A stretch of 64,000 nt of DNA from the NCBI RefSeq assembly GCF_037975245.1, contig NC_092576.1, positions 6,180,001 through 6,244,000 of the forward strand, in the 5' to 3' direction. The position numbers and the translations under genes are program-made. The DNA is from Apostichopus japonicus (lineage: Eukaryota; Echinodermata; Holothuroidea; Aspidochirotida; Stichopodidae). The notes beneath the pieces are model-generated. The model ran no database searches, was not told the DNA's origin, and saw only the letters and a list, made by a program, of their open reading frames with translations. Below, piece by piece: positions 17,760 to 58,115 of the stretch (positions within the stretch are counted from its first letter, which is position 1; every line of letters begins with the position of its first letter).

Positions 17760-18582
17760 AGGGCATGCAACGATACCACGATTCACTGTACAAGATGGTT
17801 ACACGGTGTGTTCCATAGACGTGCAAGATACAGGCCGTTTGGCTGTCGCTGGATATAATGAAAAGACACACTGCAGCTTTATCGATCTGTTTATGCTACA
17901 TTTTGATCCATATTCTGGAGAAAAACCGTCGTTATTTACGTCAGAGCCTTGTTATTCTAAAGAATTTACCGAGTTTGGTTCATCGTGGCGGTCGGTTGTG
18001 TCATTGGATGGTAATTTGTTTCTAACGTGTTGTGAGGGCACGATAGCATTGTACCAAAGTAGTAATGGCGGTCTGGTCAATCAAGGAAAGTTTACCGGTA
18101 AAGCCAGGTGTATGACAACCAGAAATGGTTTAATTTATGTCGGTTTAGATGGATCCAAAGAGGTGATTGTTTTTGATTTGAAAGAATTGAGACCAAAAAG
18201 GACAATCACTTTAACAGAATTACAAGATGGTGAATGCCCCGTTGATATAACAGTTAGTAATAATAAACTGTTTATCTGTACAGACTATTATATGAGAGCT
18301 TTAAAGTGTAATAGTGACGGAGAACTAGAACAGGTGTATACACACAAACAGTACAGATCTGCTTGGAGTATAACAGTCTGTGAAGAGAAAGGATTAATAT
18401 TTATATTATGGGGCGGTTTAGGGAGTAGAAACGTTGTTGTTTACTCGCGATCCATCTCTGGGGGTCATATCTTGGCTTCTTGTAAAGTTCCTGATTATTC
18501 CTTGAGAATCGGGATCAATAATAACATAAACAGATTGGCTGTGGTAACCTGGGAAACTGGAGAAGTATATGAATATCACACA
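17760..18582 (+). CDS. Gene A exon: beta-propeller domain
   Basis: Starts after tatatacag in phase 2 and ends at caca/gtaagt in phase 0; 274 codons. Repeated short blade patterns are visible (CSIDVQDTGRLAVAGY, SVVSLDGNLFLTCC, CMTTRNGLIYVGLDG, DITVSNNKLFICT, SITVCEEKGLIFILWG), each two or three beta-strands with a Gly/Asp turn. This fits a WD40/NHL/YVTN-type propeller of about six or seven blades, probably a ligand- or protein-binding sensor. Which propeller family it belongs to is not clear. No in-frame Met precedes the acceptor, so an upstream exon supplies the start. Confidence 0.75.
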
Positions 18583-19500
18583 GTAAGTACTAATACATGA
18601 TATATAGGCCTAATGTAAAACTTGGGACTTTATATCACTTTTATTCAAACTGTCCTTTGAATGAAGATACACGAATTCGGTTTCATTCAATGCGAACAAG
18701 TGAGGAGAAGACACTGTTTCGAGATCTAATTTTCAAACTTTAAAAAATAAGAACATTTTTGGTTTCTTGCTGAAAGCAAAGGAACCTTTGTAGCCAGGTC
18801 GGCTTGTTTTTACATGTGTGTGTGTATGTGTGTCACAATTAAGTTTGTTTGCACGATAACTCAACAGGTCACAGGGTCAAACGTCAAACTTTGCAAATCG
18901 CAATAACTTTGCAACTACAAGTTGGAGTTTCTTCAAACTTGGTATGGTGAAGTTGATAGACCAACTATTTTGTTAAATATAGTGCATTGGAACAGCAGTG
19001 TGAAGTCAATTAATGTGTAGCCTTATAGGCTAAGTATTATCAACATTGATAAGTACTAAAATATTTACTTTCCATATTTAGCTGAGCACAAATAACAAAT
19101 AACACAAATACAGTTTTATTTGAATACAAAATCATATGTGTAGGCTCTCCCCGTCTCAGCTATAGGTTCGTGGACACGTTGTAACCGAGGAGTGGATGGA
19201 AATTACTCGAATTAGTTGAGGATCCACTTCACACCCCTTCTCACCCACATCTCCCTCATCCCCTTCTCAATCTTCTGCTGAAAGCTAGAAACAGTATCAT
19301 AAACAAATATATATTTACAAACAACTGCTTTTATAATTGTTATCATTCTTGGTGAAGTGCATGGACTGTTATATTTGAAGTGTTTGATAAGCAACCCGCT
19401 CGAGCTAAAACAAAACTACGTTAGTGCATGGCTAGTCTAAGGTGCTAAATAACGTCAGTGTTGCCTAGTAACTCTTGAAATTAAGTATTAAAGCAGTACA

Positions 19501-19585
<85 letters not shown>

Positions 19586-22500
19586 AGATTTCTCTTAGAA
19601 ACCGGTATACTCTGAACAATGCTTACCATGTTAATTTTATTTAGAGGCCGAAATTGTGTTCCAATGGGAATTAAGGTTAAGGCTGACTCATGGAAGAACG
19701 AAGCTCATACTGGAAGCTCAGCATCATTCGCCTGTATGCATGTACACTGACACATACGATGAACCGATTTTGGAACAAATTTTCATCCACTCTATTTACT
19801 CCCGCCTGAAGCCCCCAACTTCACTCACAAAATGTCCAGTATACTATATTTTGTCAGGTTTCTATTTTGAATAATAACGGAAAATAGTAGAGAATTTTCC
19901 AATACACCACTGTTAGATAAGACTATGGGACCGTCGACCACACGACCACACGGATCTGTAGACTTTACAGACAGACCACCTGTATTGACGTTAAGCCAGC
20001 ACCCTCCCCCGTCCTTCCCCTCCTAATCTTGCAACTGATTCATGCATATTTATGAGGAGGCAGGCTGAGCATTATTTTTGTAAGTGAAGTATGTAAACAC
20101 GATAACTCAACTGATTTTGGTGCTCATATAATGAATATTAACCGAGTTCACGTGGTCAAATGTCGAAATCTCAAAATTGCAATAACTGCAAAATCCTCTT
20201 TATTTGGAGTCTACTACCACCAGTCTAATATTTGATTTTCTTTTTGTTATAGAGTGACATATTTACTTTTGATAACCTCCTGAAGTGCTCAGATGCATTG
20301 ATTGAGAAAGATGACTGTCAGAAGCTACTTGACTACCTTGAAGTTCCAGCTAAGGCATCAAAGGACATTATTGAGAGTGATGCACCTTTTTCATCTCTTG
20401 TCCACCATCTCAGAGAGGCAGGGAAGGTTTCTTATGATGACATCAACTATTTAATGACAGCATGCTCTGACAAAGGACTGAGTAAATTGATGACAGTATT
20501 AACTGTCTACCAACAAACTCAAGGTATGTTTATATCAGAGAGCGTAACAAGTTAAATATGTTATGCCTTGCAAAACATGCAAACGCATTGCCCTCAAAAT
20601 ATATAAATACAATTTGAGGTTATACACCATTGTATTGTTTAACCAACCAATGGTTGATAGAATAAGGATCATCCACCAATACCCTTAAATAGAAATAATG
20701 TGATAAATGAGTTGGCAAGAAATTGAATAACCGCAATTGACTGTAAAGTACGCAAACCCAGAAAGAGAATCCAATTTGGATGTTCAGAAGTTAAATTATT
20801 CCACACTTCATGCTTCATTCAATGTCCAGGTCTTGCATCACAGTCAATTCTTTGCATATATGTCTGTAACTTATGGGATATACTCTCAAGTTTGATTGGG
20901 ATATGTTCAGACAAGATTAGTAAAATTTTGGAATTTTCTTCCTTTTTAAATTTTGTAATTTAGTATTCTTGATAGATGGGAGCATCATTGAAGGCGCCTG
21001 ACTTTGTTGAATTGCTCAGAAGCAGAGCCAAACTAAACCCCCCAATAAAGTAAAATATTTACATGGTCACCTCAAATAACATTCTAAAGTTGGACCAAAA
21101 TGTGACCTCACTCTAAATTTAGTGCAAGTTTGTTTCAATATTTTTGGGGAAGTTTTGACCGGATAAATTATTACATAACTAAATCTCTTGGATGGAAGAC
21201 AATCTTTAACAATGTTTGCATCCTATATGTTTGTTTCAGATTCAAAGTTTACTACAAAAGGAGGTGATAAACAACAGCCAACCGGAAGACTAAATGCAGA
21301 GGAGGAGGATAGAGAGCAACTCACTGATAAACTATCAAAATCAGGTGAACAGCATCAAATTACTGGAAGACTTCAAGCTGCAGAGGAAGAGAGACAGAAA
21401 CTCAGTGATAAACTAAAAGAATTAGAAAATGATAGACAACAATTTATAAGACGACTAAACACAGCAAATGAGGAAAGACAAAAAGTTGCTGAAACATTAA
21501 AGTCAACAGAGGAAGAAAGACAACAGCTCTTTGAAAGATTACAGACAGCAGAGGAAGAAAGACAACAATTGAAAGATACACTGCAGGCAACAGAGGAAGA
21601 ACGACAACAGCTGGATGGAAAATTGAAGACCACAGAGGAAGAACGACAACAGCTGGATGGAAAATTGAAGACCACAGAGGAAGAAAGAAAACAATTCAAA
21701 GATGCATTGAAGGCAACAGAAGAGGAAAGACGACAGCTGAATGGAAAACTAAAGAGCACAGCGGAGGAAAAACAACACTTTAAAGATGCATTGAAGGCAA
21801 TAGACTATGAAAGGCAACAACTCACTGGAAGACTACAGACATCAGAGAAGGAAAGACAACAATTGAAAGATACACTGCAGGCAACAGAGGAAGAAAGACA
21901 ACAACTTACGGGAAGATTAAAGACTACAGAGGAGGAAAAACAACACTTCAGTGACAGATTGAATAAGCAGAAAGAGGTTAGACTTCACATAATATGTGAT
22001 TATAGATAACTGATGACTAAGTTACCTGACTTGGGCCATGAGAAAGTTAGTCACTATGAACAAGACAACTACCCTTGTAGTAGTGTCAAGTGACTTTGTA
22101 ATTTTTTATTTACAAACACATGTATTTTCAGAAATTTGGGAATGTTTATGATGCCCAACAGTAGAGATCAAATTTTGAACATATGAACAGCTTTATGTCT
22201 TTAGAATTTTATGGAAACATGATATTAAGTTCATGTGATTTACATTAACTCAACGTGTATCAATAGAGACCAAGAACAGAACATTCAGAGAGTATTCATT
22301 TCATGATGTATTGCTATTTTAATGTGGAAGCTTACTACTGAATTGTACTAATTGCTTAGTTACAAGTGACAGTCTCAGTTAACTAGCAAAAGTAAACAGA
22401 GGAATTCTTCGTGTGCTTTGGCACAAAGTCTAGTAGAAAAAGCATATCATGGAAAATATTGAATATTAAAACAATATATAATTAGTTAATCTATTTGATA

Positions 22501-25500
22501 TAAATGAACGCCTGTCCTTCAATGTGATAGACCTACATACCTTCTTCTAGAACAGTAGTTCTACCGTTAATGGAAGATACTTTTGAAGTTAGCTCACAAT
22601 TTTCAACACTAACTTATTGTGAACATTTGCTTTTCTCTGAACCACGTAGTAATTACCCAATAGTCACACCCTCAAATAATTGTCGCAGAGGTCATCATAT
22701 CAGCCTGCCTGAAATAAGTTTGGAGGAATTTGTTTACTTGAACTCTTTCCCTTCAGACCGTCTACTTTAATTTGTTAAGTTGAATGTTTTCGCTTCGTAC
22801 CGACTACTTCAATGTTAGTATATATTTTAATTGGTGGCAAGTAACCACGGGAGATGCATCCTTTTCAGTTGTCTCATACACTGTATTGTTTACATGACAG
22901 GAGCTGGAAAAGGCCAAATCAAGTCTGAGGGCTACAAAAATAGAACTTGAGAAGTCTCAACTGGAATATGCAAAAGAAGCCATGGCTTTACAAGAAGTCC
23001 TGAAGCAGAATAGGGAAGCCTTACATCAGCAAGCATTGGTAAGTATGATAAAGCATAGTAAGTGAATTATTAAAATAGATTAGTGTGTATGTGTAGCCAG
23101 CATACCATTAGTAGCAAAAGAAGTGTGTTTGTAAAGTGAGCAAAACATTGTGACGAGACCATTACTGTGCTGAATTTATGATCAAACTTTCCACTGTCGG
23201 TGTAACAAGGTGACAGCACAAGCTTGAGCTTTACAAACCATAGTTCAATAATTTTCACAAATGTCCTTAATTCATGCTACAAGTAGTGTGAAGTGAGTAA
23301 TGAGTACATTCACCTATTCTAAACTCAGTTGCTTCTATCAGCTAAAGACTTAATTGGTGTAACTTGACAGGTGACAGAACTGAGGTTCTTTTTTTTAATG
23401 TGACAGTACAACAAATAAGATATTTCCTATGTTGTTTATTTGCAGGCTTCATCCGCCTCTGTAACGGAGGAAGCCACCATACTAGCAGAACGCGAAACTC
23501 TTGACATATCACAGGGATCAAATTTGGCAGGTATGATCACAATAAAAAGATCATTGCTGCTGCCCTGTGTTAAATTTCCAGGCAGTAGGTTTTCTTATGT
23601 AAGGGATGGGGAAGGGGTGGTTACACGAGTCAATGTAAGCAGTGTAGGATTGATTGTCAAACTATCACTTCTGTTCAGATATTAAAATTGTCAAGTGAGC
23701 TCTGCAGAGGTGTAAATAAATCAAGGATTATCATAAAAACAGGTGAAATCTCTGTAATTTCTTGCCGATGGCAGAAGGAATCTTTGTGATGATGGTGATG
23801 ACGTGTGTGTGTTTGTGACACTTGCTCGTAAACCCTTTAACTTCAGAAGGATAACTGGGTTTATTTCATATTTGGTATGTAGGTTGCCTGTATTGCTTTT
23901 GTGAATATCAAAAGCCATTTGAGGTCAAGAGCGGGGAAAAAATTAGCCTGTTCGATTCTTATATGTGGTTATGAATTTCTGTGATTAGTTCAGCAGAATC
24001 TATTGTGCTGGTGGAGGCGAAAGGTCGCTTAGGGGATGTCTAAAAAACGAACATAACAACCACTGAGGGTCATATGATGTGCTCCATGGTAGCACCTAAC
24101 TTCGATCCAACTCATTTGTGTGCCTTTATCCCTTCTACAGCTAATGTCATAATTTGATAACTGCCACAGTCCTGCAAAAAACTTAGCCTCACACATACAT
24201 TTTACTAAGTGTTGCACGTATCGATGTTTACTGCAATTGTTCAATTGCAAAATTGCTGGTTCCTTTAAAAGATTGAACTGCAGATGAAACACTTACAGAA
24301 TATCAGGACTGTACATGCACATTGTACATTGACATAAGTAGTATAGAACAGGATTCGCTGTTCCTTAGCAACACACATCTAATTGCCTTACATGGCCTCA
24401 CAGATGCAGAACAAGCATTTTCAGAAACAGAGCAAATAAATATCAAAATCGTCTACTCAAGCAACTAATATTGAACTATACAGTAAATGTCATAGTATAT
24501 GTTATAGTGGAGTTTTGTTGTTTAAGAAACTCCTACATGTTCTGACAAAGTGTTAAAGTAACAAACCTGTTTAGGAGCAGCAGGAGCACATCACAAGATC
24601 CTGCATGGTTTGTATGTTTTTCTAGTGTGTAGTGTGATGTCTATATTTACATATATCCCTGGGATCAAGGAGCAAATAACATATCATATCAGCACCTCAA
24701 GGGCTTTCTTGTGAACTATTGTAGAAAATGAAAGCCTTACCTAATTCCTCTTTATAGTGTTTGTACTTTCATGTCATCAAGTGAGAAAGATCACACCCTC
24801 CTAAAATATGCAGGGTATAATTTGATGATTTTGAATCATTTGGCCCTAAATATCATCTGAAGCCCATTGCTATGTTATAAAACAGTGACAGTTAAAGATG
24901 CTATGGTAACACTGATGCTTGTTGTGTATGTGAGCAGTTACATCAACAGTACTTTAACCAGAGGGGAACCTATCCCAGCAGTTACTTGCCTTAAATACAT
25001 TATATATGCATCACAAGAGTAGTTGCAAGCAAATAACCCTGGCTGAAGTTCATACTGCAGATGAAGAGCAGTATCAATCTAAAAAGAGTCAGCGCTTACA
25101 TGGTTTGATGACAGGGAATCGTGTGACATAACACCACAACGATGAAAGAAAAACAGAGAGGCATTGTTTGTTGTTGATAATTTATTTTGATTGCTCACTA
25201 TAACAGAAAAGTGCTGACTTTGCATGTTAAATTGTTATCCTGATGAGATCCATTTGATTTTTTGTCATCTTGACCTCTGCTCACCTCAAATGACGTTCGA
25301 CTTCCACCAAAAACAATGGGTTCTTGCAATCACTATAAGAAAGACTCATGCAAAGTATGAGTATGAGATGTAACCTATCTGAGGATATCATGTTTACAAG
25401 GTTTTTGTTTATAAGACTTTACAGAGTGTGACTTCCACCAAAACAGTGGGGTTATTGTGCTCATTATAGGGAAGCCCCTTGTGAAATGTTAGAATAAATA

Positions 25501-28500
25501 TAGTTTCTTATCTTGAGATATCTTGTTTACAAGGAATTCGGGTTTGACCCCTAGTGACTTTATATGAGCTCTTACTTACATCAAATAATGTAGAAACCTT
25601 ACATTACATAAGGCTACCCTACCTTGGATGTATGAGCTTATTTGGTGTTCAGGTCCTAGTGATACAATATTTTGAGGTTTCCAGTTTCTCTCTGCTGACC
25701 ATTGACCTTCACCCAAAACAATACGATTCTTGTACTAATTATGGGAAAGCCACAAGCCAAATAACATAACTTTAGAAGTTACACACTTGACAACGGCAAG
25801 CAATAAACAAATATTGAAAACATCACAGATTTCACAAAAATATCATCTCAGCTATTGAACTGATTGAAAAGAAATGTACTTTGTTATTCGATATTAATAC
25901 TTACAAAACAATCAATAATCTAGTTATAAATAGGAATGTGATCTCACCTATTATTTAAAATTCGGTATTTTCAATTGGTTTGCTGTGCGGACTGGGATCC
26001 TTAACTATATGTTTTTGTTACTGTTATTTACATTTCAGCTGATTACGGAAGATTAATGGTCAATGTTGCTGAAAATCTTACTCTAGACAGCACTCTGAAA
26101 TTAGCAACTCTGTTTGGTCTACCACCGGCAGAAACTGATATGCTACGCCGCGTTACTCAGACAGAGACGCCAGGAATCACTCTGATTAAATTCATGAAGA
26201 CACGAAACATCATCAATATGTACGATGTCACTAACCTACAAAAGGGTTTGGTTTATATTCACCTAAACCAAACAAATGAAGATCTCTTAGTTCCATATCA
26301 GTCTAAAGTTGACCCCTTTCAATGTGAAGACAACCAATCACCACAACTACTTGACTGGCCTGGTAAGGATGAAGAAAATTATGTAACCAGAATACAAAAA
26401 CACAAAAATAGTACAGTACAGTAAAAATTCTAGAAATTTGTGTAAGTCGGAGGTTAATATTCAGCTTTCGGGCAATTTGTTATTTTAAACTATTAATTAT
26501 CATGGTGTTTGTATGGTGAAAGTTATTACAAGGGGATCTTTGAACCAAATGATTGGTTGCCATTTGATTCCTTTCTTTATAATAGAAGATTGAAAATAGC
26601 AAATGCCCAAAAATCTAGGTCCCAAGGATTAGCCAATATTTGTAGGATCCATTAAAACATCTGGTTTCTCAGACACGTTGCTAGATTCTTTTTATACTCA
26701 TGTTGTCTGATGCAATTCGTCTAACAACATAAAGCTTGTGTTACATATCTATTACATTTTGTATGAAGATTCCTTCAGTAATACCTCTTTCATAAATCAA
26801 CTGCAAGGCTTTTGTATTGATGAAGAACTTTAGATTATCAGGGATTAATTTTATTTATCAAGTATCACATCGAAAATGCTATGCAAAATTGGCGAATTGC
26901 TATGCGAGTGCAAAGATGAATAGCAGTTTTAATACACATGAACAATAGCACATATAGGAGACAAAACTATATGCACAACTTGAGCAATAAAATATTCTCT
27001 GATTAGAGATGAATGTGGCATAGTACAGCTGATTTTGTTTTTAAACGGCAAAGCTTCATTTAAGGTGGTTGTGTTTCCATTATTCTGTTTTCAGTTGAAA
27101 AAGTCAAACTTGACCCTGATGATGAATCAACTCTATATCAAGGTTCTGATGAAAGAGAAGAAGATCATGACCACAGTAAGGAGAGTTTGATAGAGAGAAC
27201 AGAGAGAGAAGAACTACCAAAACAAAGAAAAGATTCACAAATACTTGAAATGAGGCACCGTCATTCATACATTGAACACAGGATAAAGTGTGAAGGTGGA
27301 ACTATTAGCATCATGGGGGTACATCTGACCATTCCTGAAGGCGCTTTATGCTTTGATCGTGTAATAGCTGTTAAAGTGATCTATGATCCCACCATATCCC
27401 TCCCTGGAAGTGCTCGTAGGGGCAGAATGACACCTCTGATAAAACTAGAGCCAGAAGGACTCATCCTAAAAAAGCCAGCCCAGCTGACTATTCCTCACTC
27501 AGCTATTATCCCTGAGCCAAATCGACATGATGCTATTATCTTCACTGGTCTGAAAGATGAAGAACATTTACAAGAAGGTAAGATTGTGACCAATAAGCAC
27601 TTTAAATGGAATCGATGAATGGACCAGGCGAAGTATAATGAGTTATGATGAAAATCAGTTCGGTTGAATTCAAAATATATATCATCTAATATGCTCTGGA
27701 TATTTACTGCCTTTAAGTTTAACAAATAGTATATTTTATGTAATATTACTCGTTATAGGTGAAGTAACTTGGACTGAAGAGAAATCTATTGATTGGGAGC
27801 TAGACACGGAGAAGATCAGACTTGATATTAACATCCTGAGCTACGTCTTTGTTAATTTAGTCAGCCAAGAAACAGAACAGAAGCATATATTCCGTATTGT
27901 TCCATTTATTAATGGGATACTTGATGCCAAAGCTGATGTCTTAATAACTGTTTGTTTCTGTAAGGACAGTGATAAAGAGTACAAGGTGAGGATTATCTCC
28001 TGTTACCATGGTGGGTCAGTTTTGTTCCATGATGTGATTTGTAAGTCAGGTACTGGCAATGTTACTTTCTTTCATGATTTGTATAGTGACTGGCAAATAA
28101 TGAAGTGATTTGATAAAGGCACATTTGTGTGATACAATTTATTGATTCATCGTAGCACATCAAAAAGACGTATATGTTACATTTGAAATGCAAATATTTA
28201 AACATGCCGCTGACATAAAACATGTTTCTGCCAAAAGTGTTTGTTCTTAGATGAAACTGACAGTCATAAAGGGAGAATGCTGATAGTTTTATAGAGGGAC
28301 CGATGATGGTATTTTACTAACATTATTATTATTTCTTTTTCCTACAAAATATGTGTGTCCTCTCAAAACTATGCATTTGACCCAATTTTGATGAAACAAT
28401 CAACATTGGTAATGGACCAAATTAAGGAAACAAAGATGATGTTACTTGCTATAACAGTATTGATCTCTCTGTAAGGAGTGAAGGTGCAATAAATTGTAAA

Positions 28501-31500
28501 ATTAACTCTCTGCTTGTTTCTTTGCAATTACCATATTCATGTTCTTATGTTTTAGTTGCTGTTAAAGGACTACCATTCCAAACTATGTCTAGGAGACTAT
28601 ACAACATTTTCAATTACCCGGACATTGAATAACGGCAAAGACCGTGTTTCTTACATTGATCTGATCATGTCAACAACACCCGGTGATGGTTACCATCTAA
28701 CGACGGAAGAATCAACAAAGGTTTGTAATTACCAATGCTTTAAAGTTTGTCTTTTAACATTACTAGACTTGTAGTTAAGGATTGGTTACCTAAAGTGGAT
28801 CGAATTGTGTATCAGTTAGAGTGTTGCCCTACTAATATATGGTTTCTGGTTCCAAATGCCAGAAGAAACCACAATATAAGCAAACTTCTGTAGTACAACG
28901 TTGTTTAGCAGGATCTTGTGTGGGTTGGTATTCTTGTTTTATATGAATAAAGAAGTGAAGTTTGGTCCTATGTTCTTTAGTTTGGTTTTGCAAAAAGCTT
29001 CTTTTTACCGTGGCTTTAAGTTGGTGATGATGAACGCAGATGTCTATTATTCACCTACATTTGTATTTGAGGCAGTGTTCAATTATTGTGGCACTCTCTC
29101 CAATCTTGGATTGAGTCTTGATTAAGTGGCTGTCCCGAAAGCAGGAATATTGGAGACAAACAAATAATAATAATATCTCTGCACACTCATAAAACAGAGA
29201 ATGAATGATATAAGGCGGTGTTCATCCCCAATGACATGAATACCCATAGAATATATTTATGTAGAATACCTACCCCTGGTAACAATCTAAACCAAATAAT
29301 GTTATGGAATTCCTATTTACAATAGGAAATATGGTCTTCACTAGCTCCCGATAAATTGTAAGGATTTGTACATCACCACATGTCATTTCCCTCGTTAGTA
29401 TATCTTATATGTAACATCGTTCCTCTGAATACTTAACAAGCAGTCTCATCCTCAGTATCTTTTATCTATTAGCATGTTGACATCGATCACCTCTGTGCTG
29501 CCAGTAGAGTCTCTCATCAGTTTAGACTTGGTAGGGACAAAGATGGAGACACTGACATGGTTGATGTGAAGTTAAAAGTATCACAACATGAAATGAACCA
29601 GACAGACCTTAACCTCCAATCGAAGGTGAGCTATGTCTGCTAATCGTCTTCCAGCTTTTTGTGTTCTCATATGTTTCTTCATTACAAGACATTAGAGCGG
29701 CATCTTTTCCCATTTGCTCATTTCTTTGCTTAGTAATGTCCTGTCTGATGGAAGTCTTGCAGCTGTTTCGAAGCTGAAATAAACAACACCTCTGTTGTGT
29801 CATTGAATAATGTCAGCACTGTGACTGAATTAAAGCTTTTCTTCGTCATGTTCTTTCCTGATCCTTTTTTTTTGTAATATTCATTGTAGATAATAATTAA
29901 ATTTAGTTTAATTGTAGTATTCTTTTATTAATGTATTTTTTTCAGTCACTCCGGTGAACCTGGTATTCTTACGTTTGCCATTTGATCCTGACTCTTCCAT
30001 GTGGCTTTGTAAATAATGAGTAACTTAGAATGCAGTGAATGGCTAAGAAAGTGTACATATAACCTATGTGTTTATTACATACACAGGTCAACAGTTATGG
30101 GAATCTTTATTTTGTGGGTATCTTAGGTACCAATTTAAGAATACTGCATAAATAATATGTATGTTGTCATCAGCATTCCGTTTTCTTTTGGGAATTCACA
30201 CATTTATTATGTGTTGTTCCATGTTTGCTACAGCCCTATTTTTCTACATTACGTTCCTACTGTAAATCCAATCACTCTTAGGGGTGTGATAGCTGGCATA
30301 AGTGAATGTTAAACATTCTTACCCTTAAAGTTTCCATCAGTCATATAATAATTTATTTTTGTTTTCTTTCAGGTGAAAAACATTCTCTTATCTCCGGAAA
30401 GCCAGAAATTTCTTAACCCAGGTGAGTTTTATGTGGAAGTGCAACAAATGGGTGGACTTATCTAGTTTTAGAAGTCAACCCTGACCAGCATCTAGGTGAA
30501 GTTGGAAGAAGAAAAATAAGTGATCATTATTCTTTTACATGCACCAGGTAAGTATGTATTAGTTGAGATAAAAACGTAAACACAAGTAGAGCATACGGAC
30601 CCGTAAGTTTCTAAGTGAAGGTGAAAAGATAACAGCATTTGGTTTCAACAGTAGACACACATAAGTGTTACTTATATCAACTTTGTTTTTTTGAAACATT
30701 TAATCAACATTTGAAGAAATTTTTTTTACTGCTGAACCCGAAATAATCCTATTTGCATGCTTCCATGTTTAGTTAGTATGATCACTTCCTACTTTGTAGC
30801 TCAAGCAACTTTCAAAGTGAAGCTATATAATACTAGAATTTATCCACAAGCTAAGGTTTCAAGTTAAAAAGTTGCACGCAAGTTTTGGACAGTGTACTTA
30901 CCCAATTTATCGTGTGCACGCACGAGAGGTTGACTTGCATTCCAAAGTTCTCAATGATGGTTACATGCTTTTTGTGGGCCAGTCGTGTACTTGTGCGTGT
31001 TAGCTGTGAGCATTGCTCATTGTCCGAACCTAGCACTCAATTAGCATGTGCTTCAGGCAGTCTACTTTTTAAATGTGATATCTAGTATTTGCTATTTATT
31101 TTTTTCGAATGTTAATTGGATGTTATGTCCTCACTTTCAGGCTTACAAAAATATAAAAAAATGAGAGGAGACATTGGAAAGCTTCTGGATAAAGAACATT
31201 GTAAAAAGCTAGGCAAGTGGTTTGCACTCACGCCAGCAGAGAATGATCAAATTCAGAGAGCAGCAGAATCTGGAAAGATGCTGATGGAAATATTGGATGA
31301 AAGAGAGCTCATTATGCCAGACAGGATGATCGGAATGTATGACGGATTGAGAGATATTCGCTTTAATGAGGGGGTTACACTGTTGCTGGAGTACATTGAT
31401 ACATTACAGGAGAAGGGTGGACAGGTAAACGAAGGAGTGAAAGATGATCATAAGAAAATGGTTTGTGCTCTACAAAAACTAGTTAAGACTTACACTTCAA

Positions 31501-34500
31501 GCTTAAAGCAAAACAAAAGTCAGTTTGCATAAACTCAAGAACTTAGACTGGTTAGAACCTCTAGTACAGAATGTACTTTCTGTTTTAAAAGTATTATTTT
31601 TGCTATCATGCGAGTCTGTCTGAAATGTCTGCTGACTGAAACTTAAGTTTGTAGAGATCACATGTGCAAGAAGTCTGTGTAGAATATTCACTGCAGCCAA
31701 ATCAAATGCAGTAATTAGTTTTCTATCTTCATGAATGTATGATCGAAAATGTGAAATTGTTAAACAATTTGTAATATTTCAACATTGTTTCAGTTACAAA
31801 ATCCCGCGAAAGAGGAAGTAATCTCAAAGAGGGAATCAGAATGGTCAGTAAATTTAAAAAAATTGATAGAAGAGGGATACCAGAGGCAGAATGTCCAAAG
31901 TGCCCTGAAATTGTCTCATGGGAAACTAGTCTTGGGAAGACGGATTTTGTCAAAGGAAGTACATGGTAAATATACCTTATGTATTTAGCTACATGTGTAT
32001 TTCTGTTCTATCTCTTCCTGGTATAAATAACCGCCACCTCATCTGACATTCTACGGCCACATTTCAAGCCCTTGCTGTTTCAGTGTTCATGGAAGAAAAA
32101 GTATTTTTATTTATTTTATTAGGAATATTACTCACATAATAACTACAAAATAGAAAATTGATTCAGATACCTTTTATAAACTTAAGTGTTATTATTTTCA
32201 TGTCAAACATTAAATGACTACTGTTCACTGCCCATTAAGACGTATATTTAAGTTTTATATTATATTTGGTATTTGCAAATAGAAAATAATAGCAGTTTTG
32301 TGTTAGAGAGGCTGTTTTCATAATGTGTGTCGAAACAGTTTATGCATCAACACATCTTCTATTGAAGTGACAAAATACTTTCCTTTCACTTGAAATATAT
32401 TACTTTTCTCCTCTAGAGAAACCGCCTTTGTTCACAGGATCCAATTTTTATAAAGAGCAGTACTTTGATCAGCATGGAGGAGAGGTGGTTATCGCAGGTG
32501 TCATTCTGCGTGTACCAGCTGGGGCACTAGACACTGAAAGGATTGTTAGTCTGTGGGTTTCTACTGACCCTGCCAGTCAAGGACCTATCTCAAAGAAGAG
32601 TTTAAGATTGACCCCTTTTGTGAAATTTGGTCCAGAAAGCCTTACCTTACAAAAGCCTGTCACCTTGATTATTCCACACTGTGCTTTAACTCCAGCTGAC
32701 CAGATGGTTATTGATGTGTATTCAGGTGTATTACAAACAGGTGTGTCTCGGTTTCTTGTGATTTGTGCTTTATAAGTCCATCGATCATATTATTTCATCA
32801 CTTTAACGTTACCATGAACTTAATACGTACTATATATCTACCAGAGTGTTTCACACAATTTGAAATTTGTTATGCCAATAAAGATGTCGTATGAGGTCAG
32901 CAAGATCAAAGCTTGAAAACCTTCTAAACCTGCATAACTGCAAAAGTAATGCTGGGATGTGAAAAATGTGAAAATGCTTGTTATGTGAAATCACCTGAGT
33001 ACATGAACACTATAATTGGCAAGAAAACCACTAAATTTCATTCTGGCTGTCTGGTTCCGTGTAATGTAGAAATTATTATTCATAAGAGGGACGTATGGTA
33101 CGAGCAATTTATTTTTAATATCTTGCCAGAAGCAAAAGGAATCTATGCAATGGTCCTGGCATGTGTGTGTGTGTGTGACACTTGTTCGTAAATATGGTGA
33201 CTGAAAAGTTAATTTTGGATTAACTTCAAACTTGGTTTGTGGATCTGTCTTTTTGAGTACAAGAACCTCTTTTCTTTTCTGCGACGGCCAATGGTTAGGT
33301 GAGGTCAAAGAGGTCATAATTTGACAACCTTGTAAACACGATAACTCAAAAAGTAGTAGTATGTAGAAGCCTATTGACATTGGCAGAGATCAAAGGTCAC
33401 ATGAGGTGAACAAGTGTTAAAGTATGTAATCCTTGTAAGCATGTTATCTCCAAAAATAAAGCTACAATTAATCGGTGAGTTCTCAGATGTTATGATTTTC
33501 TTTTGGTAAACATAGTTTGGTCAATTTCATATCAGTTCAGTTTGTGAATGGGCCCAATATAAAATAAATCTTAAGTGATCTCTAACAATACATAAAGTCA
33601 TCCAGGAAATGACATATGCTTTAAATAGTTGATACTCTTGTTTTGGGTGCTTTAAGCACTTTCCAGTGGCCAAATAACAGTTTCACTCTCTAGCTTAAAA
33701 GGGTCAACAGGTTATCTCTAGTGGTGACGTTGATTTAAGCAGTAAGTTGTGAGAATATTTCACAGTGTATTAAAAATGTCATGTCAATCTCATTCATTTA
33801 TAACAATTATTAAAGGAGTGGTTGGTGTCAGAGTTGATTTTAGAGCTCAAAATTGGTAAATAAATGTCCAACTGCTCATACATTCATGTGTCTATTCTTA
33901 ACGTAGGAAGACTGTTCTTTCTGGATATTTAAACAGTTTGGAATACACGTTTGTTTACTGTAAAATCCTTACCAGTGACTTTAATTAGTTGATATCCACA
34001 AGTGATACTGCAGATAAGAGGTAAAAATCTCTGATCTTTTCTACGTACATTTCACCATGTTATAAAACGTTACCAGTTAGCAAATTGTTTTTGAAATTCC
34101 CATCAGATAAAGTTATCAAATGGAGCCAAGAAAGGAATCACCTCATCTGCTCTATGAATAGTCAACACTTTGCAGTTGAAGCTGGGAAACCTTGTCTCAT
34201 TGGTCTTCACGTCCCTTTCATTCCCAAGATGCTGAAGCGTGTCTGTGTCTTACCGATTGTAAACAGAGTTTCTGAATCGGGGGATCAATTGACAATCCAC
34301 TTTTGGTTTTATAATGATGACTCACTGGAACATAAAGTAAGTAGTAGATTTGTCAGCTCAAGTGTTATTATTAATTATGTCACAGATTCCAGTTATCTGT
34401 CTTAACTCAAGCTTAATTGATTTCAAAGTTAAGTGGACTGATAAAGTTTCAACTAGAAGCCTACAGCATAAAACCTTTCTGGAAGGTCAGATTGTAATCA

Positions 34501-37500
34501 TATAGTCAAGGGAAGGGTCATGTGAGATAAGCTGGCTCAGGCTGTCTGTGGCCATTGATGATTGGCAATCAACTTTGTACTGGACAAAAAACAATGATCA
34601 GATGTCCTATAATAACAATTTAATGCTCAACTTTTTCTTGTGTGTGGTCAATGACAACTGACAGCAACTGTTGCAACAGACAAAATTGTAAGCACACCTT
34701 GACCAGGTGTCCAATATTAGAGAGTGAAGAGTTTATATTTCAGAACATATACCATGAGACTATAGTCTTTGATAATCCATCTAGCAGACAATCAATGTAT
34801 AATTGTATGATAATAATAATGACAGCTCCCTGATTTCAGTTTATATTCCCCTAATTAAGTGGGGATTCAATTACAAGCTTGTGGATGTACAACAGAACTC
34901 AGACAGAGTTTAATAACACATAACTTGGTCCAGTTAATCAACCAGATAAGAGATTGGACAGAAAATATGTACAGAGAGTTAGACTTTATTACCCTCATGT
35001 ATCAGATATTATAGTAGCTGCTGGTTTCACCAAATAATGGCAACACCAATTAATAATGAGAGGGTCATACCAGGGAGCTGTTATTGCTTCCTGGTCATAC
35101 ATTGGACAACTAAGCAGTGTATCAGTGTATGTATTGTTGGTCATGTTTAAATAAACATTAATGATAAATGCAATATTAAATTGCTTCATTTCTATTTTAA
35201 CAGAGCCTTATCAATGAAGAAATCTATCAGCAAAAGGGATCCATAATTCAAAATCCTGTGTCTGTTCAACTCAATTCTATGACTTCAACTTTACAAGTTT
35301 GCACTAACTCCAGTACCTCACAGTGTAAACCAAGACAAGTGGTTAGTACTGTTTGTCAAAAATTCTTATATATTTTATGTCAACATGTAAAGAAAGCATG
35401 TAACTCCTGTTCCACGGGTAATTTGGAATTGTTGGAAGAATACTTTTATGCATCTGTTGAGTGGAATGTAATAGTGCTAGCATATGTTATTATATTGTAA
35501 ACTATTATGTATATTTTACATTTATCACAAATAAGCATATCCTATGTTATATTGAAACTGTTTCTTTCTCAATTTGTAATGATACTCAATGAGATTATCA
35601 CAGTATGGTAAAAGTTACTTCGCATGATCCATTTATACATCTGGATGAAAGGGGCTGTTTAGATCAAGTGCCTAGGCCAAGGTCACAGATTAAAAATCCG
35701 TGCAGGACTGGAACCTGTAATCCTTAGATTGTCAGCATATTCACTTTAACCACTTTACTATCAACATAATTGCTTTATAGTCTCACGTTTTATAAATTTA
35801 TAATAAAATATCCTTTGCTTATTCTCCCCAAAGGATGTTGCCATGGAAAACTTATGGTTAAAGAACAGACACAAGGAAGAATTTCATCTTCAGAATCAAG
35901 GGATCAAAGATACTGTCAATCTGGAAATAGTAGCAGGATATGGGAAGTTTTCGAAGAATTTGTTCAAGCTTAGTATTGAATTGCAGGTAACTTGATTTGA
36001 CTTAATGGAACAGAACTAAAGATCTGAATATGAGGAGTTTCACAATTTACTTTGGATCTTTCTTAGCTACTGCAACTCCTTTTATATTTAACGTGTTTGA
36101 TTATTGTTTACCCTTTTTAACATTCTCGGAGAAAGTCATTTTTGGTTGTTACACTGAAGGCATAGTAACCTGGTCGTGCTGGCGTCTATGTGTGGATGTG
36201 ATGGGCTAGCTTGTAAACATGATATCTCGGTAGGTAGATGCCCAATGATGTGTAGATGTAGATGTGCCCTATTGTTTTCACATCTCATGCATATTAATGA
36301 GTGGGCAGACCTTAACATAAAAATGTTAATATGGCAATATGTCTTCAACGGTATGTCTGATTTAGTTCATAATTGGTTTGGTGTTGTAAAGTACACAGTG
36401 GGTACATGTTAATTTTGTAACAATAATTTTGACCTCAATAATATTGATGAGTGGGTGGGGCTTAATGGGAAATCATCTTTAACTAATTATAAATATGATA
36501 TCTCAAGAAACACAAGTTGAATTAATGTCAAACTTGGTAGGTAGATGCGCAATGGTGTGTAGATGTTCTAGATTCTCATTTTATGAATATTGATGACTAG
36601 GCAGGGCTTAGTTTGGTGCATGCAGGTATGGTGATGTTAAAGCACATGGGCATATTTTCATGACGTCTCCAATTTTGGGTCATCAATATTCCTCAAATTG
36701 CAAAAAAAATGGCTTTTAAACACATGCCAAGAACCCAAATGATTTTCATCCTTGACATATCATACAATTAACCGTGTTGGTTTATGTGTTTATCATGCAT
36801 TTTAATCAGTGAACATGAATTCTTAATCAGATATATCTGAAATAATATGTTTAAATTAGCTTTACTCATGTACTTGGATAATACAATCTTAGTATATAGA
36901 TACATACTTATGGGATCATATAGTTTGACCGCATTAATATTCTTGTTTGTATCTGTTTTTTATAATAAATCTTAACATGATAACTCATTCCTGGTACCTT
37001 CATTAATGTGTTGCCGCATTTAATAGTCAGTAGACAATCCTCCTCAGTTGGATATGCACAAGTTCATGAATATTAACATGTATGGCTTACCAAACTATGT
37101 ATATGTTGAGGCATTTTCTGGTTTCGTTTCTATTGAAATCTCTACTCTGTGGGTCTTAATTGATGAACTGATTTTCATTGTAAAGGTTTGAAGTGTAATT
37201 AGCAATGCCAGTAAAAATCTTATGACTAGCCGTCTTCATGTCACAAATGTACAGAAAATACACTGTATAGGCATTAAGTCGTAATTAGCATATCTTAAAT
37301 TTATTAGTTTAAACCGCTTTTCGAGGTGAAATATGCACAAACTAGTTTTCTAGAAGAATCATATAAAGATTTCCTCTCTGTTTCCTCTTCACAGATTGAC
37401 AAGTTACGACACAATGACCAAATCACATCTCCATTCCAGCTCATTCTACCTGAATGTGAGTAATTAATTATTTTAGCATGTTAATGCAGCTAAAGATTTG

Positions 37501-38381
37501 TTATTACCATATTCTACTCACTACCAGGTTTTGAAAATCGAAAATGTTCTTTAATATCCAGTATTGCAATTAGCTGATAGTTATAGTCCACCAGTTGACA
37601 TGACAACTGTAGCCGGGACTCCTCAATGCAAATTAGGATTAGGTGTACACATCTCATATGTAAGGAATTGTAGGCAGTAATTAAATGTTGATTTATGAAA
37701 AGTAAGATTACATTCACCCATCTTGTATGAAAGGATTGTTATCCTAAATTTTGTAAAGTATTGGTGTTTGCTTTGGTGTTAAACATTAGTTGTGACACCA
37801 AAGAAACCCACCTTAAGTACATATACTGTATTCATGTCTCATTGCAGTGGAAAACAATCACCTGCTCACCCTTCAATCACCTGCTTGAAATAGGCATTCT
37901 GAGAGTTACCGCAGATTGTATTTTAGTCTCATTGCAAACGCTTTTTGCCCCTGGGTGTAAGAAACACATCACTGTTGTCTCACATTTCTGGATATTCATT
38001 GCATAAAGCAGGATTAATTAATTTTATGTTGAGTAATGTATTCAAAATACTTACAATTTCCTTTCTTTGAACCCTACAGCCATCATCAAATCTTTTGATC
38101 AGCTAAAGCGGAACTTATCAGAACACCTTGATGTAGACCAATCTACCATGCTGGCAAATATTATCCAACTTCCTCAGGAAGAAATTACTGATATCAAAAA
38201 GCACAAAACACCAGGAAATCTTTTGATGGAGAAACTGACCAAAAATGCATTGATTTCTCCCACAAACATCGCAAAATTGGAAAATGCCTTAACAGAACAA
38301 GGAAATGAAGAATGTGCAAAACTTGTCAGAGATTTTAGATGGAAAAATCCTGTAGTTCAAGCAACAATGTGCACAGAATAA
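17760..38381 (+). CDS. Gene A: propeller, DED, coiled-coil, two ZU5-UPA-death-fold modules (PIDD/UNC5CL-like scaffold)
   Basis: Nineteen exons chain with matching phases and GT-AG borders to a stop at 38,379-38,381, giving 1,715 codons plus an unseen N-terminus. Order: beta-propeller; DED-like; coiled coil of 14-residue repeats; DED-like; ZU5; UPA; DED-like; UBA-like; ZU5; UPA; DED-like. ZU5-UPA plus a death fold is the core of PIDD1, UNC5 and UNC5CL, which assemble caspase or NF-kB signalling complexes or act as receptors. No transmembrane segment or signal peptide is seen, so a cytoplasmic scaffold is inferred. Alternatives: two adjacent genes, the first ending at 31,532 by read-through of the 31,424 donor, or alternative isoforms of one gene. 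The exact function is not known. Confidence 0.75.
18775..18970. repeat. Interspersed intronic repeat, (TG)n-containing family
   Basis: Contains ctgaaagcaaaggaacct, a TG-rich tract, then gcacgataactcaacagg and caaacttggtatggtgaag. Diverged relatives sit at about 20,090, 23,745, 33,115, 36,160, 39,340, 57,345 and 62,660, mostly in introns of genes A and B. No coding capacity and no clear ends, so the class is unknown. Confidence 0.6.
19500..19582. repeat. (TA)n microsatellite, long allele
   Basis: About 80 bp of nearly pure TA dinucleotide. The orthologous tract in copy B (about 58,073-58,112) is about half as long. Confidence 0.95.
20253..20523 (+). CDS. Gene A exon: death-effector-like domain 1
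   Basis: Acceptor ttatag, phase 0; donor g/gtatgt, phase 1. Ninety codons give a six-helix pattern typical of DED-like folds (NLLKCSDALIEKDDCQKLLDYL, SSLVHHLREAGKVSYDD, YLMTACSDKGLSKLMTVL). DEDs recruit partners by homotypic contact. It carries no clear RxDL charge motif, so whether it is DED or another death fold is open. Confidence 0.7.
21240..21976 (+). CDS. Gene A exon: coiled coil made of 14-residue repeats
   Basis: Acceptor tttgtttcag, phase 1; donor gag/gttaga, phase 0. About 16 tandem 14-residue units of the type EERQQLTGRLKTTE or EERQQLKDTLQATE. Fourteen residues equal two heptads, so Leu/Phe positions recur in register and predict one long coiled coil for dimer or oligomer formation. 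At DNA level it is a 42-bp coding minisatellite. The copy in gene B is 348 bp longer. Long open frames on the opposite strand here are by-products of the repeat. Confidence 0.85.
22901..23038 (+). CDS. Gene A exon: coiled-coil extension
   Basis: Acceptor tacatgacag, donor attg/gtaagt, phase 0 on both sides, 46 codons. Charged, Leu/Ala-rich helix (ELEKAKSSLRATKIELEK, EAMALQEVLKQNREALHQQA) continuing the coiled coil without the 14-residue repeats. Confidence 0.75.
23446..23530 (+). CDS. Gene A exon: short acidic linker
   Basis: Acceptor tttatttgcag, donor g/gtatga, phase 0 to 1, 28 codons, Ser/Thr/Glu-rich (SVTEEATILAERETLDIS). Conserved in place and length in gene B but with 15 of 85 bases different, far more divergent than earlier exons. 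Confidence 0.65.
23745..24020. repeat. Interspersed intronic repeat, (TG)n family
   Basis: Carries ttgccgatggcagaaggaat, gtgtgtgtttgtgacacttg and tcatatttggtatgtagg, the shared features of the family also found at 18,775 and 33,115. The intron from 23,531 to 26,038 otherwise holds no recognised feature except the repeat at 25,260. Confidence 0.5.
25260..25790. repeat. Degenerate direct repeats in intron
   Basis: Three diverged versions of a block with cttccaccaaaa-caatggg, cttg-a-tcactata and aagcc begin near 25,308, 25,430 and 25,700, each followed by a tatctcatgtttacaagg-like stretch. They look like an inverted-orientation relative of the (TG)n family. Confidence 0.45.
26039..26362 (+). 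CDS. Gene A exon: death-effector-like domain 2
   Basis: Acceptor catttcag, donor g/gtaagg, phase 1 on both sides. The core is LMVNVAENLTLDSTLKLA, FGLPPAETDMLRRV, GITLIKFMKTRNIINMYDV and LQKGLVYIHLNQTNEDLL. The helix pattern and the isolated-Gly/Ile-Ile-turn of helix 4-5 fit a DED. A short Ser/Gln/Pro-rich tail follows before the ZU5 exon. Confidence 0.75.
27095..27577 (+). CDS. Gene A exon: ZU5 domain 1
   Basis: Acceptor tgttttcag, donor g/gtaaga, phase 1 on both sides. After an acidic/basic linker of about 60 residues comes the ZU5 beta-sandwich: GGTISIMGVHLTIPEGAL, VIAVKVIYDP, MTPLIKLEPEGLILKKPAQL and TIPHSA. These match the GG-x-V-x-IPxGA and P-x-L-x-KP-x-x-L-x-IPHCA-like hallmarks of the family. 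In PIDD and UNC5 this domain packs on UPA and the death domain. Confidence 0.88.
27759..27985 (+). CDS. Gene A exon: UPA domain 1, part 1
   Basis: Acceptor cgttatag, phase 1; donor aag/gtgagg, phase 0. Encodes the first UPA strands (DIGWELDTEKI-like start WELDTEKIRLDI, LSYVFVNLV, KHIFRIVPFI, ADVLITVCFCKD). The position of the PIDD-type HFS cleavage motif reads L-S-Y-V-F here. Confidence 0.75.
28556..28720 (+). CDS. Gene A exon: UPA domain 1, part 2
   Basis: Acceptor ttatgttttag, donor aag/gtttgt, phase 0 on both sides, 55 codons (LCLGDYTTFSITRTLNNG, YIDLIMSTTPGDGYHLTT). Corresponds in order to 35,204-35,341 of the second module. Confidence 0.65.
29473..29625 (+). CDS. Gene A exon: UPA domain 1, part 3
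   Basis: Acceptor tctattag, donor aag/gtgagc, phase 0 on both sides. It is 153 bp, exactly the length of its counterpart at 35,834-35,986. Encodes strand-like HQFRLGRDKDGDTDMVDVKL. Confidence 0.65.
30373..30421 (+). CDS. Gene A exon: UPA-DED linker 1
   Basis: Small 49-bp exon, acceptor tttctttcag, donor g/gtgagt, phase 0 to 1 (VKNILLSPESQKFLNP). Its role and phase match the 61-bp exon at 37,395. Confidence 0.55.
31141..31424 (+). CDS. Gene A exon: death-effector-like domain 3
   Basis: Acceptor ctcactttcag, phase 1; donor cag/gtaaac, phase 0. Helical: YKKMRGDIGKLLDKEHCK, WFALTPAENDQIQRAAES, MLMEILDERELIMPDRM and MYDGLRDIRFNEGVTLLL. This closes the first ZU5-UPA-death-fold module. If the donor is skipped, the frame runs on for 35 more codons to a stop at 31,530-31,532, giving a shorter protein that ends here. 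Confidence 0.72.
31794..31965 (+). CDS. Gene A exon: UBA-like domain
   Basis: Acceptor cattgtttcag, phase 0; donor g/gtaaat, phase 1. The segment LKKLIEEGYQRQNVQSALKL and HGKLVLGRRIL follows the UBA pattern (hydrophobic helix 1, G-[FY] turn, V-x-x-AL helix 2, A/G-x-x-IL helix 3). A UBA would give ubiquitin binding to the scaffold. Short domain, judged by eye. Confidence 0.55.
32417..32740 (+). CDS. Gene A exon: ZU5 domain 2
   Basis: Acceptor ctcctctag, donor g/gtgtgt, phase 1 on both sides. Clear ZU5: DQHGGEVVIAGVILRVPAGA, SLWVSTDP, LTPFVKFGPESLTLQKPVTL and IIPHCALTPADQ. Shorter linker than ZU5 1. Confidence 0.88.
33115..33450. repeat. Interspersed intronic repeat, (TG)n family
   Basis: Shows ttgccagaagcaaaaggaat, gtgtgtgtgtgacacttgtt, cttcaaacttggtttgtgg and ttgtaaacacgataactc in the family order, followed by ggtcacatgaggtgaac. 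It fills part of the intron 32,741-34,076. Confidence 0.55.
34077..34336 (+). CDS. Gene A exon: UPA domain 2, part 1
   Basis: Acceptor cgttaccag, phase 1; donor aaa/gtaagt, phase 0. A nearer AG (34,080) would break the frame, so the upstream one is chosen. Contains FACQ-like start SMNSQHFAVEAGKPCLIGL, VCVLPIVNRVSESGDQLTI and WFYNDDSLEHK. The motif HFA (34,166-34,174) lies where PIDD/UNC5CL-type proteins carry HFS. Confidence 0.75.
35204..35341 (+). CDS. Gene A exon: UPA domain 2, part 2
   Basis: Acceptor attttaacag, donor gtg/gttagt, phase 0 on both sides, 46 codons (NEEIYQQKGSIIQNPVSVQL, STLQVCTNSSTSQCKPRQV). Counterpart of 28,556-28,720. Confidence 0.65.
35834..35986 (+). CDS. Gene A exon: UPA domain 2, part 3
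   Basis: Acceptor ccccaaag, donor cag/gtaact, phase 0 on both sides, 51 codons ending KFSKNLFKLSIELQ. Same length and phase as 29,473-29,625. Confidence 0.65.
36160..36640. repeat. Interspersed intronic repeat, two tandem copies
   Basis: The order cttgtaaacatgatatctc, ggtaggtagatg, cccaatgatgtgtagatg, tgcatattaatgagtgggc occurs at 36,210-36,310 and again, diverged, at 36,490-36,610. It lies in intron 35,987-37,394 and relates to the blocks at 39,340. Confidence 0.55.
37395..37455 (+). CDS. Gene A exon: UPA-DED linker 2
   Basis: Acceptor cctcttcacag, donor t/gtgagt, phase 0 to 1 (KLRHNDQITSPFQLILPE). Parallel to the 49-bp exon at 30,373. Confidence 0.55.
38080..38381 (+). CDS. Gene A last exon: death-effector-like domain 4
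   Basis: Acceptor accctacag, phase 1, running to a TAA stop. Six-helix pattern: IIKSFDQLKRNLSEHLDV, MLANIIQLPQEEITDIKK, NLLMEKLTKNALISPTNI and LENALTEQGNEECAKLV. It takes the position of the C-terminal death domain of UNC5/PIDD. A possible polyadenylation signal aataaa lies at 38,928-38,933. Confidence 0.72.
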
Positions 38382-42430: not shown

Positions 42431-42603
42431 TGCATTTGATGTTTTAATTGCCCATACATTCTGGAAGGGTTACTGCCTTGCTGTGGACCTGTGACAGGTT
42501 TAGAAATAGTTACCTTTAATGTATATTATGTATCTGATTCCAAAGCGTTGTTCATATGTGGTATTAATTGTGCAAACAATCTGGAGGAATTGACGCCTTG
42601 GTG

Positions 42604-58069: not shown

Positions 58070-58115
<46 letters not shown>

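Follow-up and report, generated by a model that had tools for sequence, protein, structure and literature searches.

The window analysed here, a stretch of 64,000 nucleotides from the sea cucumber Apostichopus japonicus, contains a gene of 19 exons on the + strand (17760-38381). When the model was rebuilt from the window, the exons formed a single open frame with one stop at 38381, and the internal exon boundaries were GT-AG throughout. The first-pass annotation had described 19 exons that keep phase from start to stop. The open frame, the splice sites and the stop agree with that description, but the start does not: exon 1 opens in phase 2 at a splice acceptor and lacks a start codon. The limits of exon 12 also need correction. 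The donor chosen initially, at 31424, is seen in the window copy alone among six copies read, namely the window gene (W1), a tandem copy that lies in the window and beyond (W2) and one copy each on contigs C19, C23, C15 and C11. A donor at 31460, 36 bases further on, has a counterpart in all six copies as read by eye, and is probably the true end of this exon. It adds 12 codons, and the joined product has 1717 amino acids instead of 1705. The exon series recurs in the paralogs.

The first in-frame methionine of exon 1 is residue 45, and the residues before it are conserved in paralogs. Because exon 1 starts at a phase-2 acceptor and Met45 lies within paralog-conserved sequence, at least one upstream exon is missing from the model. 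A conserved 5′ exon, non-coding as far as seen, ends at 15224 with the donor GTAAGT (14925-15224, +, where 14925 is the start of our query and not a biological limit), and is seen in W1, C19, C23 and C15. In the window copy, an in-frame stop was noted by eye just before the junction of this exon. A comparison of W1, C19, C23, C15 and C11 by blastn and tblastx revealed no ATG-bearing exon and no RING-like conserved frame upstream of exon 1, so that the start exon was not found, and the conservation in this region looked non-coding. The gene may use a non-AUG start or have an unseen mini-exon at its 5′ end.

The predicted protein begins with a beta-propeller of 274 amino acids in exon 1 (17760-18582), followed by a DED-like death fold in exon 2 (20253-20523). 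Exon 3 (21240-21976) encodes a coiled-coil rod of 42-nucleotide (14-amino-acid) repeats that ends in exon 4 (22901-23038), and exon 5 (23446-23530) is a linker; the assignments of exons 4 and 5 rest on the exon model and paralogs. A second death fold occupies exon 6 (26039-26362). Exon 7 (27095-27577) contains a further linker and the first ZU5 domain, whose end is encoded, together with a UPA-like region, by exons 8-11 (27759-27985, 28556-28720, 29473-29625 and 30373-30421). A third death fold in exon 12 (31141-31460) and a UBA-like insert in exon 13 (31794-31965) separate this module from the second ZU5 domain in exon 14 (32417-32740), which ends, again with a UPA-like region, in exons 15-18 (34107-34336, 35204-35341, 35834-35986 and 37395-37455). 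Exon 19 (38080-38381) carries the C-terminal death fold and the stop. The order is therefore propeller, death fold, coiled coil, death fold, ZU5-UPA, death fold, UBA-like, ZU5-UPA and death fold. The tandem copy W2 has its 5′ part on the same strand at 54106-64000 and runs past the window, with a propeller at 56331-57152, a DED-like exon at 58780-59049 and a rod from about 59769.

A Pfam scan of exons 1-2 and 6-19 of the window gene called ZU5 twice above the curated cut-off (1.2e-8 in exon 7 and 7.8e-12 in exon 14). Among the other domains named by the first-pass annotation, DED in exon 2 gave a weak match below the cut-off (0.0071), and the remaining death folds, the propeller, UBA and UPA were not called by Pfam on the window's exons; these domains rest on profiles, models and position. 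Both ZU5 and the death folds were recovered nonetheless, the former by Pfam and the latter by profile comparison and a structural model of exon 19.

Exon 1 was modelled as nearly all beta, with 22 strands and one short helix, and six blades could be read. It shows the repeated four-stranded blades of a beta-propeller in a model of low confidence (pLDDT 54.5, pTM 0.55). This model has 1171 PDB matches at E ≤ 0.001, and many of the 50 listed are WD40, NHL or YncE propellers, with TM scores of 0.41-0.66. At the level of sequence profiles, the best match is CDC4 (5.7e-4, the sum of two weak stretches), and NHL proteins match at 0.0066-0.03. Up to three of 19 propeller relatives weakly match some Pfam propeller model, the best at 1.4e-5. 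The earlier description of exon 1 as a propeller is consistent with this predicted structure. Exon 3 has roughly 11 copies of the 42-nucleotide unit, and the number of repeats varies among genes, with rod-bearing open frames of 96 to 916 amino acids across the six copies read. The coiled coil had been proposed as an oligomerising rod, and oligomerisation is its putative role.

Four death folds had been claimed, and four of the six pairs of the relevant exons are related by profile comparison: E12-E19 at 3.9e-11, E02-E19 at 3e-8, E06-E12 at 8.1e-7 and E06-E19 at 5.6e-5. These values are far outside those of permuted controls (30 per pair, none below 0.0067), although column permutation also breaks the helix periodicity, which makes this control a lenient one. 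With reversed profiles, no value was better than 0.067. The pairs E02-E06 (0.71) and E02-E12 (0.0031, with a best permuted value of 0.0067) are not significant, so exon 2 joins the set via exon 19 only. Structure prediction for exon 19 (AF2) gave a model with pLDDT 82.5. The best fold matches of this model are the death effector domains of PEA-15 and of caspase-8/cFLIP, with Z up to 12.4, a value to be read cautiously since helical bundles often give Z scores short of about 13. All 50 rows shown in this fold search are death-fold proteins or their complexes. Foldseek with the same model gave no match at E ≤ 0.001 (best 0.033), and some designed helical proteins were listed. Profile searches of the PDB with exons 2, 6 and 12 produced chance matches only, and with exon 19 the death domain of Pelle (0.41) ranked behind an unrelated chain (0.14). 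We regard exons 2, 6, 12 and 19 as predicted death folds, exon 19 by its model and the others by their profile ties to it.

A profile made from both ZU5-UPA blocks (C15_Z1 and C19_Z2 were left out of the alignment) has UNC5B as its best match (4.6e-10). The match covers profile positions 13-149 of 294, i.e., ZU5 and the beginning of the following region, and further into UPA the assignment depends on position and on an alignment to the NLR relatives described below. The two blocks are only 22-25% identical to each other. The exon 13 insert, of 57 amino acids, matches three CBL UBA entries by profile (E 0.0014-0.0082, with the next, unrelated match at 0.12), but does not match Pfam UBA, so the UBA-like module proposed earlier stands on the CBL similarity. 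A match of this exon to a tRNA synthetase (0.0078, below the cut-off) was taken as chance. Overall, the sequence evidence moderately supports the UBA and UPA assignments.

The window gene belongs to a large family. Our searches covered one genome of 671.58 Mb in 35 contigs at the level of DNA sequence, and found at least 51 propeller exons with at least 60% identity to exon 1 (best 141 of 168 candidates scored). A second genome-wide listing used exons 12 and 14 as markers (best 147 of 328 candidates scored). The exon series recurs, splice sites included, in paralogs on four other contigs. When matches up to E = 10 were admitted, C19 and C15 each yielded the full 19 exons in increasing order, and C11 yielded 18 in order, with no match to exon 5. 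W2 and C23 gave 17 and 18 matches, respectively, not all in order. The C23 stretch ends inside exon 17, and in W2 there was no match to exon 5, and the 5.1 kb that follow exon 17 contained nothing credible for exons 18-19. At homologous boundaries, the acceptor AG is present at 74 of 78 testable places versus 17 of 468 shifted controls, and the donor GT at 61 of 75 versus 26 of 450. Five of the 14 donor misses were inspected; four fall at exon 12, for which the common donor is the more distal one, and the fifth is displaced by one codon.

The arrangement of markers around the 51 close propellers points the same way. Among the matches listed, 40 of the 51 have both exon 12 and exon 14 further downstream on their own strand, ahead of any other propeller, and 46 have at least one of the two. 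Of the 54 exon 12 matches listed, 48 have an exon 14 no more than 8 kb further on, and none has exon 14 before it. The 5′ exon is similarly constrained: of the best 40 of 52 genomic candidates scored, 36 precede a same-strand propeller exon by 1.8-11.1 kb. Among the matches listed, 36 of the 51 close propellers have a copy in the 12 kb before them, and none has one within 12 kb downstream or on the opposite strand. These data bear on whether two or three neighbouring genes, one for the propeller, one for the rod or first module and one for the second module, were simply read as one. That 11 of the 51 copies lack one or both of the exon 12 and 14 markers among the matches listed, and that a start codon was found nowhere, would fit such separate genes. 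However, the order, strand and splice phases are fixed, and the only conserved 5′ exon found is upstream of the propeller. We therefore consider separate genes for the modules extremely unlikely, and a single gene from the propeller to the last death fold, as proposed by the first-pass annotation, well supported by genomic comparison.

The sequence data likewise give good support to a family structure that is large and clustered in the genome, with a probably recent expansion in the sea cucumber. The tandem copy W2 (window 54106-64000 plus C16:6244001-6260000) is 90-100% identical to W1 in exons 1, 2, 4, 10, 11 and 14-17, and only 74-85% identical in exons 3, 6-9, 12 and 13. Such a mosaic is what gene conversion between paralogs would give. 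The stretches upstream of the two copies (6284-12863 and 41989-51429) have common blocks that are 84-94% alike and arrays of units of approximately 85 bp. Given this likeness, the duplicated unit exceeds the gene. A non-LTR retrotransposon-like element occurs at 46057-48960 on the − strand, with a reverse transcriptase frame (8.7e-37) and an adjoining endonuclease-like frame (1.5e-7).

Variation among the propeller heads is concentrated on one side of the predicted structure. The comparison comprised 21 of the 51 close exon 1 copies, and the D-A and B-C loops, as read from the low-confidence model, were taken as the top face. Mean residue entropy is 1.07 in the top-face loops versus 0.39 in the bottom loops, a difference reached by 2 of 100000 label permutations, where the loop sets had been written after the variable positions were seen and residues 48-61 were set aside as uncertain. 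Of 33 hypervariable residues, 21 are in top loops and none in bottom loops. With unchanged loop sets, nine copies of a second kind of head, encoded on contig C12 and described below, gave 1.34 versus 0.56, which none of 100000 permutations reached. In this second count, nine of the ten C12 rows were aligned, with L034 left out as the most divergent, and the propeller of the L022-L024 gene is not in the propeller alignment. Variation on one modelled face, as would be expected of a ligand-binding surface, is suggested by both sets.

Substitution rates do not by themselves establish selection for diversity. Pooled dN/dS is 1.01 in the top loops and 0.55 in the bottom loops. The top loops have more synonymous change as well (0.264 versus 0.138 in the bottom loops and 0.142). 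As dN/dS is not clearly above 1 and dS is higher on top, positive selection is unproven, and mutation or gene conversion could contribute. Mean pairwise dN/dS over nine exons, as plain means with no significance test, is 0.86 for the propeller, 0.75 for exon 12 and 0.34-0.58 for the other seven (C11 left out; the exon 19 value comes from three pairs). A propeller that is an ordinary protein-binding platform, in a family where genes duplicate fast under relaxed constraint and convert one another, would account for a head dN/dS below 1, for the mosaic of the tandem pair and for the raised synonymous change in the top loops. Yet relaxed constraint would not spare the bottom loops, and the one-face pattern occurs in two separate gene sets. 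Moreover, among the matches listed, only two of the 51 close propeller exons have a stop inside the match. We find this explanation distinctly improbable, and favour a head that is diversified on its putative ligand-binding face.

The second propeller set, on C12, is about 40% identical to exon 1 and is attached to a different body. At C12:33478000-33517999, the order is propeller, two death-fold-related exons (24-26% identity), NACHT, ZU5, UPA-like and Death, with Pfam matches of 6.7e-19 for NACHT, 6.7e-11 for ZU5 and 1.6e-14 for Death. Judging from order and strand, this locus is probably one gene of the NLR type. For 29 of the 56 C12 propellers listed, a NACHT and after it a ZU5 follow on the propeller's own strand, ahead of any further propeller; NACHT taken singly follows 36 propellers in this way, and ZU5 follows 44. 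These counts include the four weakest propeller matches and 11 ZU5 matches that were omitted from a first count. Of the 45 C12 NACHT matches listed, 30 are followed by ZU5 within 20 kb, and in the first count four had ZU5 before them. By contrast, the window gene has no NACHT in its Pfam-scanned exons, and none lies within the window among the best 106 of 487 NACHT candidates scored genome-wide.

The two families differ at the position where FIIND-type proteins cleave themselves. In the FIIND of CARD8 and NLRP1, the serine of the SF/S site is required, a change of Phe to His cripples cleavage and histidines matter, according to the part of PMC3210808 available to us. We located the corresponding UPA exon in nine of 11 NLR-type loci, using a query in which the motif was masked because our first choice of site had relied on a motif-bearing pattern and was circular. 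All nine exons read (N/H/S/R)-F-S-W. The ZU5 exon was found in all 11 loci, each with a histidine that ends an S-H-H-like motif (S-N-H in one), and this histidine may be likened to those of FIIND. The six scaffold-type genes read I/T-L/M-S in the first block (I-L-S in the window gene) and K-P-C in the second, so that F-S is found at the aligned place in neither block of any of the six. S-H-H was not found at its aligned place in these genes either, although W1 and C15 carry a single histidine slightly further along, where the alignment of the second block is less certain.

Two loci combine features of both families. At C19:5215246-5252491, inside a scaffold cluster, a scaffold-type propeller (71%) is followed 29 kb on by an NLR-type NACHT, 82% identical to that of the C12 gene, and by a ZU5 exon that carries S-H-H. 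At C17:14165540-14210900, a 5′ exon of the scaffold type has downstream of it a short and partial match to the propeller, together with NLR-type NACHT and ZU5-UPA exons with S-F-S-W. These loci suggest that heads have been exchanged between scaffold and NLR bodies.

The first-pass annotation held that the domain order matches neither PIDD1, UNC5 nor ankyrin, and the comparison agrees, given the propeller and the two serial blocks, with UNC5 partly matched. The UNC5B cytoplasmic region shares ZU5, UPA (in part, as delimited above) and a death fold with the scaffold, but the scaffold has two such modules in series and adds the propeller, the rod and the UBA-like insert. The Ig and thrombospondin domains of UNC5 have no match in exons 1-2 and 6-19 of the window gene, whose 5′ end is missing. 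PIDD1 has the architecture LRR-ZU5-ZU5-UPA-DD. It too shares ZU5-UPA-death fold with the scaffold, which differs in having a propeller, two full blocks and no LRR match in the scanned exons of a gene model that lacks its first exon or exons. The HF/S self-cleavage sites of PIDD1 have no equivalent in the motifs read in all six scaffold genes. Ankyrins, with ZU5-ZU5-UPA-DD, have ZU5, UPA and a death domain in common with the scaffold; ankyrin PDB entry 4d8o gives a weak sequence match (0.95), and its death domain matches by fold (Z 9.4). However, no ankyrin repeats precede ZU5 in scanned exons 1-2 and 6-19, and a full UPA and death fold come before the second ZU5. NLRP1 and CARD8 resemble the scaffold in their ZU5-UPA-death-fold block, and the sister NLRs additionally share NACHT-ZU5-UPA-Death and the F/S site with them. 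In the window gene, by contrast, neither NACHT nor an F/S site was found, there are two blocks and a propeller head, and the death folds are not recognised as CARD.

The similarity to UNC5 and ankyrin raises the question of a non-immune scaffold, such as a guidance or cytoskeletal protein, that was amplified by chance. UNC5B is the best ZU5-UPA profile match, and the accessible portion of PMC3210808 describes a Leu at the position of the cleavage Phe in UNC5B, as in the first block of the window gene. Nevertheless, no Ig, thrombospondin or ankyrin-type match occurs in the scanned exons, and a related head is found on NACHT proteins. Dozens of copies with a diversified head would also be unusual for guidance or cytoskeletal genes. 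A non-immune role is, in our judgement, very unlikely, and an immune one is preferred.

Propellers with a diversifying ligand face have been described in the fungal NLRs HET-E and HET-D, where variation also arises within a gene family (PMC4986451, in the sections available). These fungal proteins have near-identical WD units and a NACHT in the same chain, unlike the scaffold, and the likeness is best taken as convergent. Combinations of NACHT and ZU5, as in the sister NLRs, are reported from sponges and cnidarians (available excerpts of PMC12909245 and PMC8260672), Death-NACHT NLRs from sea urchin (PMC11508797, likewise in excerpt), and an expansion of NLR-CARD genes from the first A. japonicus genome (as cited in the available part of PMC13228809). 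The excerpts of these four papers contain no mention of the propeller head or of a double-ZU5 scaffold without NACHT. The nearest account found concerns TRADD-N expansions with ZU5-UPA and FIIND fusions (PMC8195603, in part). In the open-access literature searched, we found no description of a NACHT-less propeller protein with two ZU5-UPA-death-fold blocks, and no paper that joins A. japonicus and ZU5. These observations suggest an undescribed family of germline-diversified immune sensors whose kind of head is common to the sister NLRs. The locus had been singled out as a candidate for an undescribed immune or cell-death system, and the clustered family, the one-face variation and the sister family with NACHT, ZU5 and Death strengthen that candidacy, with function assigned by analogy. 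The first-pass annotation had not noted that the gene is one of dozens, that it is linked to NLRs, that the self-cleavage motif is absent or that the 5′ end is missing.

From the exon series, domain order, family size, one-sided head diversification, sister NLRs and absent cleavage motif, we infer a cytosolic immune sensor-scaffold that has no NACHT, does not cleave itself, clusters on ligand and works beside the sister NLRs; belief and doubt in this model are about evenly balanced. The ligand, either a microbial product or an altered host protein, would be bound by one face of the propeller head, the face with loops that differ among genes. Several chains would be brought together by the coiled coil, whose length also varies by gene. 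The four death folds could thereupon nucleate a DED/Death-type assembly and draw in adaptors and initiator caspases, with the two ZU5-UPA modules as possible clamps that lie between death folds. Through the UBA-like insert, activation could be linked to ubiquitin. Since the cleavage motif is absent from both blocks, activation would proceed by opening or clustering, and no C-terminal fragment would be released. Opening or clustering has also been proposed for UNC5-type proteins. A release mechanism like that of NLRP1 is probably unavailable to the scaffold, judging by the residues at the aligned site.

Once set free, the UPA fragments of NLRP1 and CARD8 associate with one another, and filaments then form at a lower threshold (PMC7794386). 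Given this self-association, the scaffold could either join or dampen NLR assemblies, two roles between which our data do not decide. A negative regulator or decoy, in which the uncleaved ZU5-UPA modules and death folds capture the UPA-Death fragments that the sister NLRs would release on cleaving themselves and so damp signalling or set its threshold, would explain why F-S is absent from both modules of all six scaffold genes while F-S-W is present in every NLR-type UPA exon found, and it would also fit the related heads of the two families. A pure decoy, however, would need neither a diversified head nor a UBA-like insert, and the mutual identity of the two ZU5-UPA blocks is low, at 22-25%. 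We consider a decoy role unlikely, and return to the sensor-scaffold.

Combined with the sister NLRs, the sensor-scaffold would form a two-tier germline repertoire, in which one kind of head is carried by two bodies, a self-cleaving NACHT-ZU5-UPA-Death receptor and an uncleaved double-block scaffold, that serve as executor and as regulator or co-sensor of one pathway. We put this forward tentatively, with somewhat more doubt than belief. If it is true, a single animal has a hundred or so variable intracellular receptors, which would bear on the open question of how invertebrates attain receptor diversity without antibodies. The variable part, its face, the signalling body and the sister NLRs can be named from the sequence, so ligand, head-swap and cleavage tests would be direct. 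The two families also offer a natural comparison, within one genome, of ZU5-UPA modules with and without the self-cleavage motif.

A third, distant set of propellers includes proteins on C2, C17 and C20, which are encoded by single frames of 738-746 amino acids with a coil and with the propeller last. RING is above the Pfam cut-off in all three, and B-box is below the cut-off. The propellers of these TRIM proteins are weakly similar to that of the scaffold (29-34% identity). They differ from it in their single open frame and in the terminal position of the propeller, and RING was not found in the window gene, whose start is missing. Finally, the genome's best ZU5 match among the matches listed occurs at C15:2416967 in an open frame of 711 amino acids, which may be another kind of ZU5 protein.
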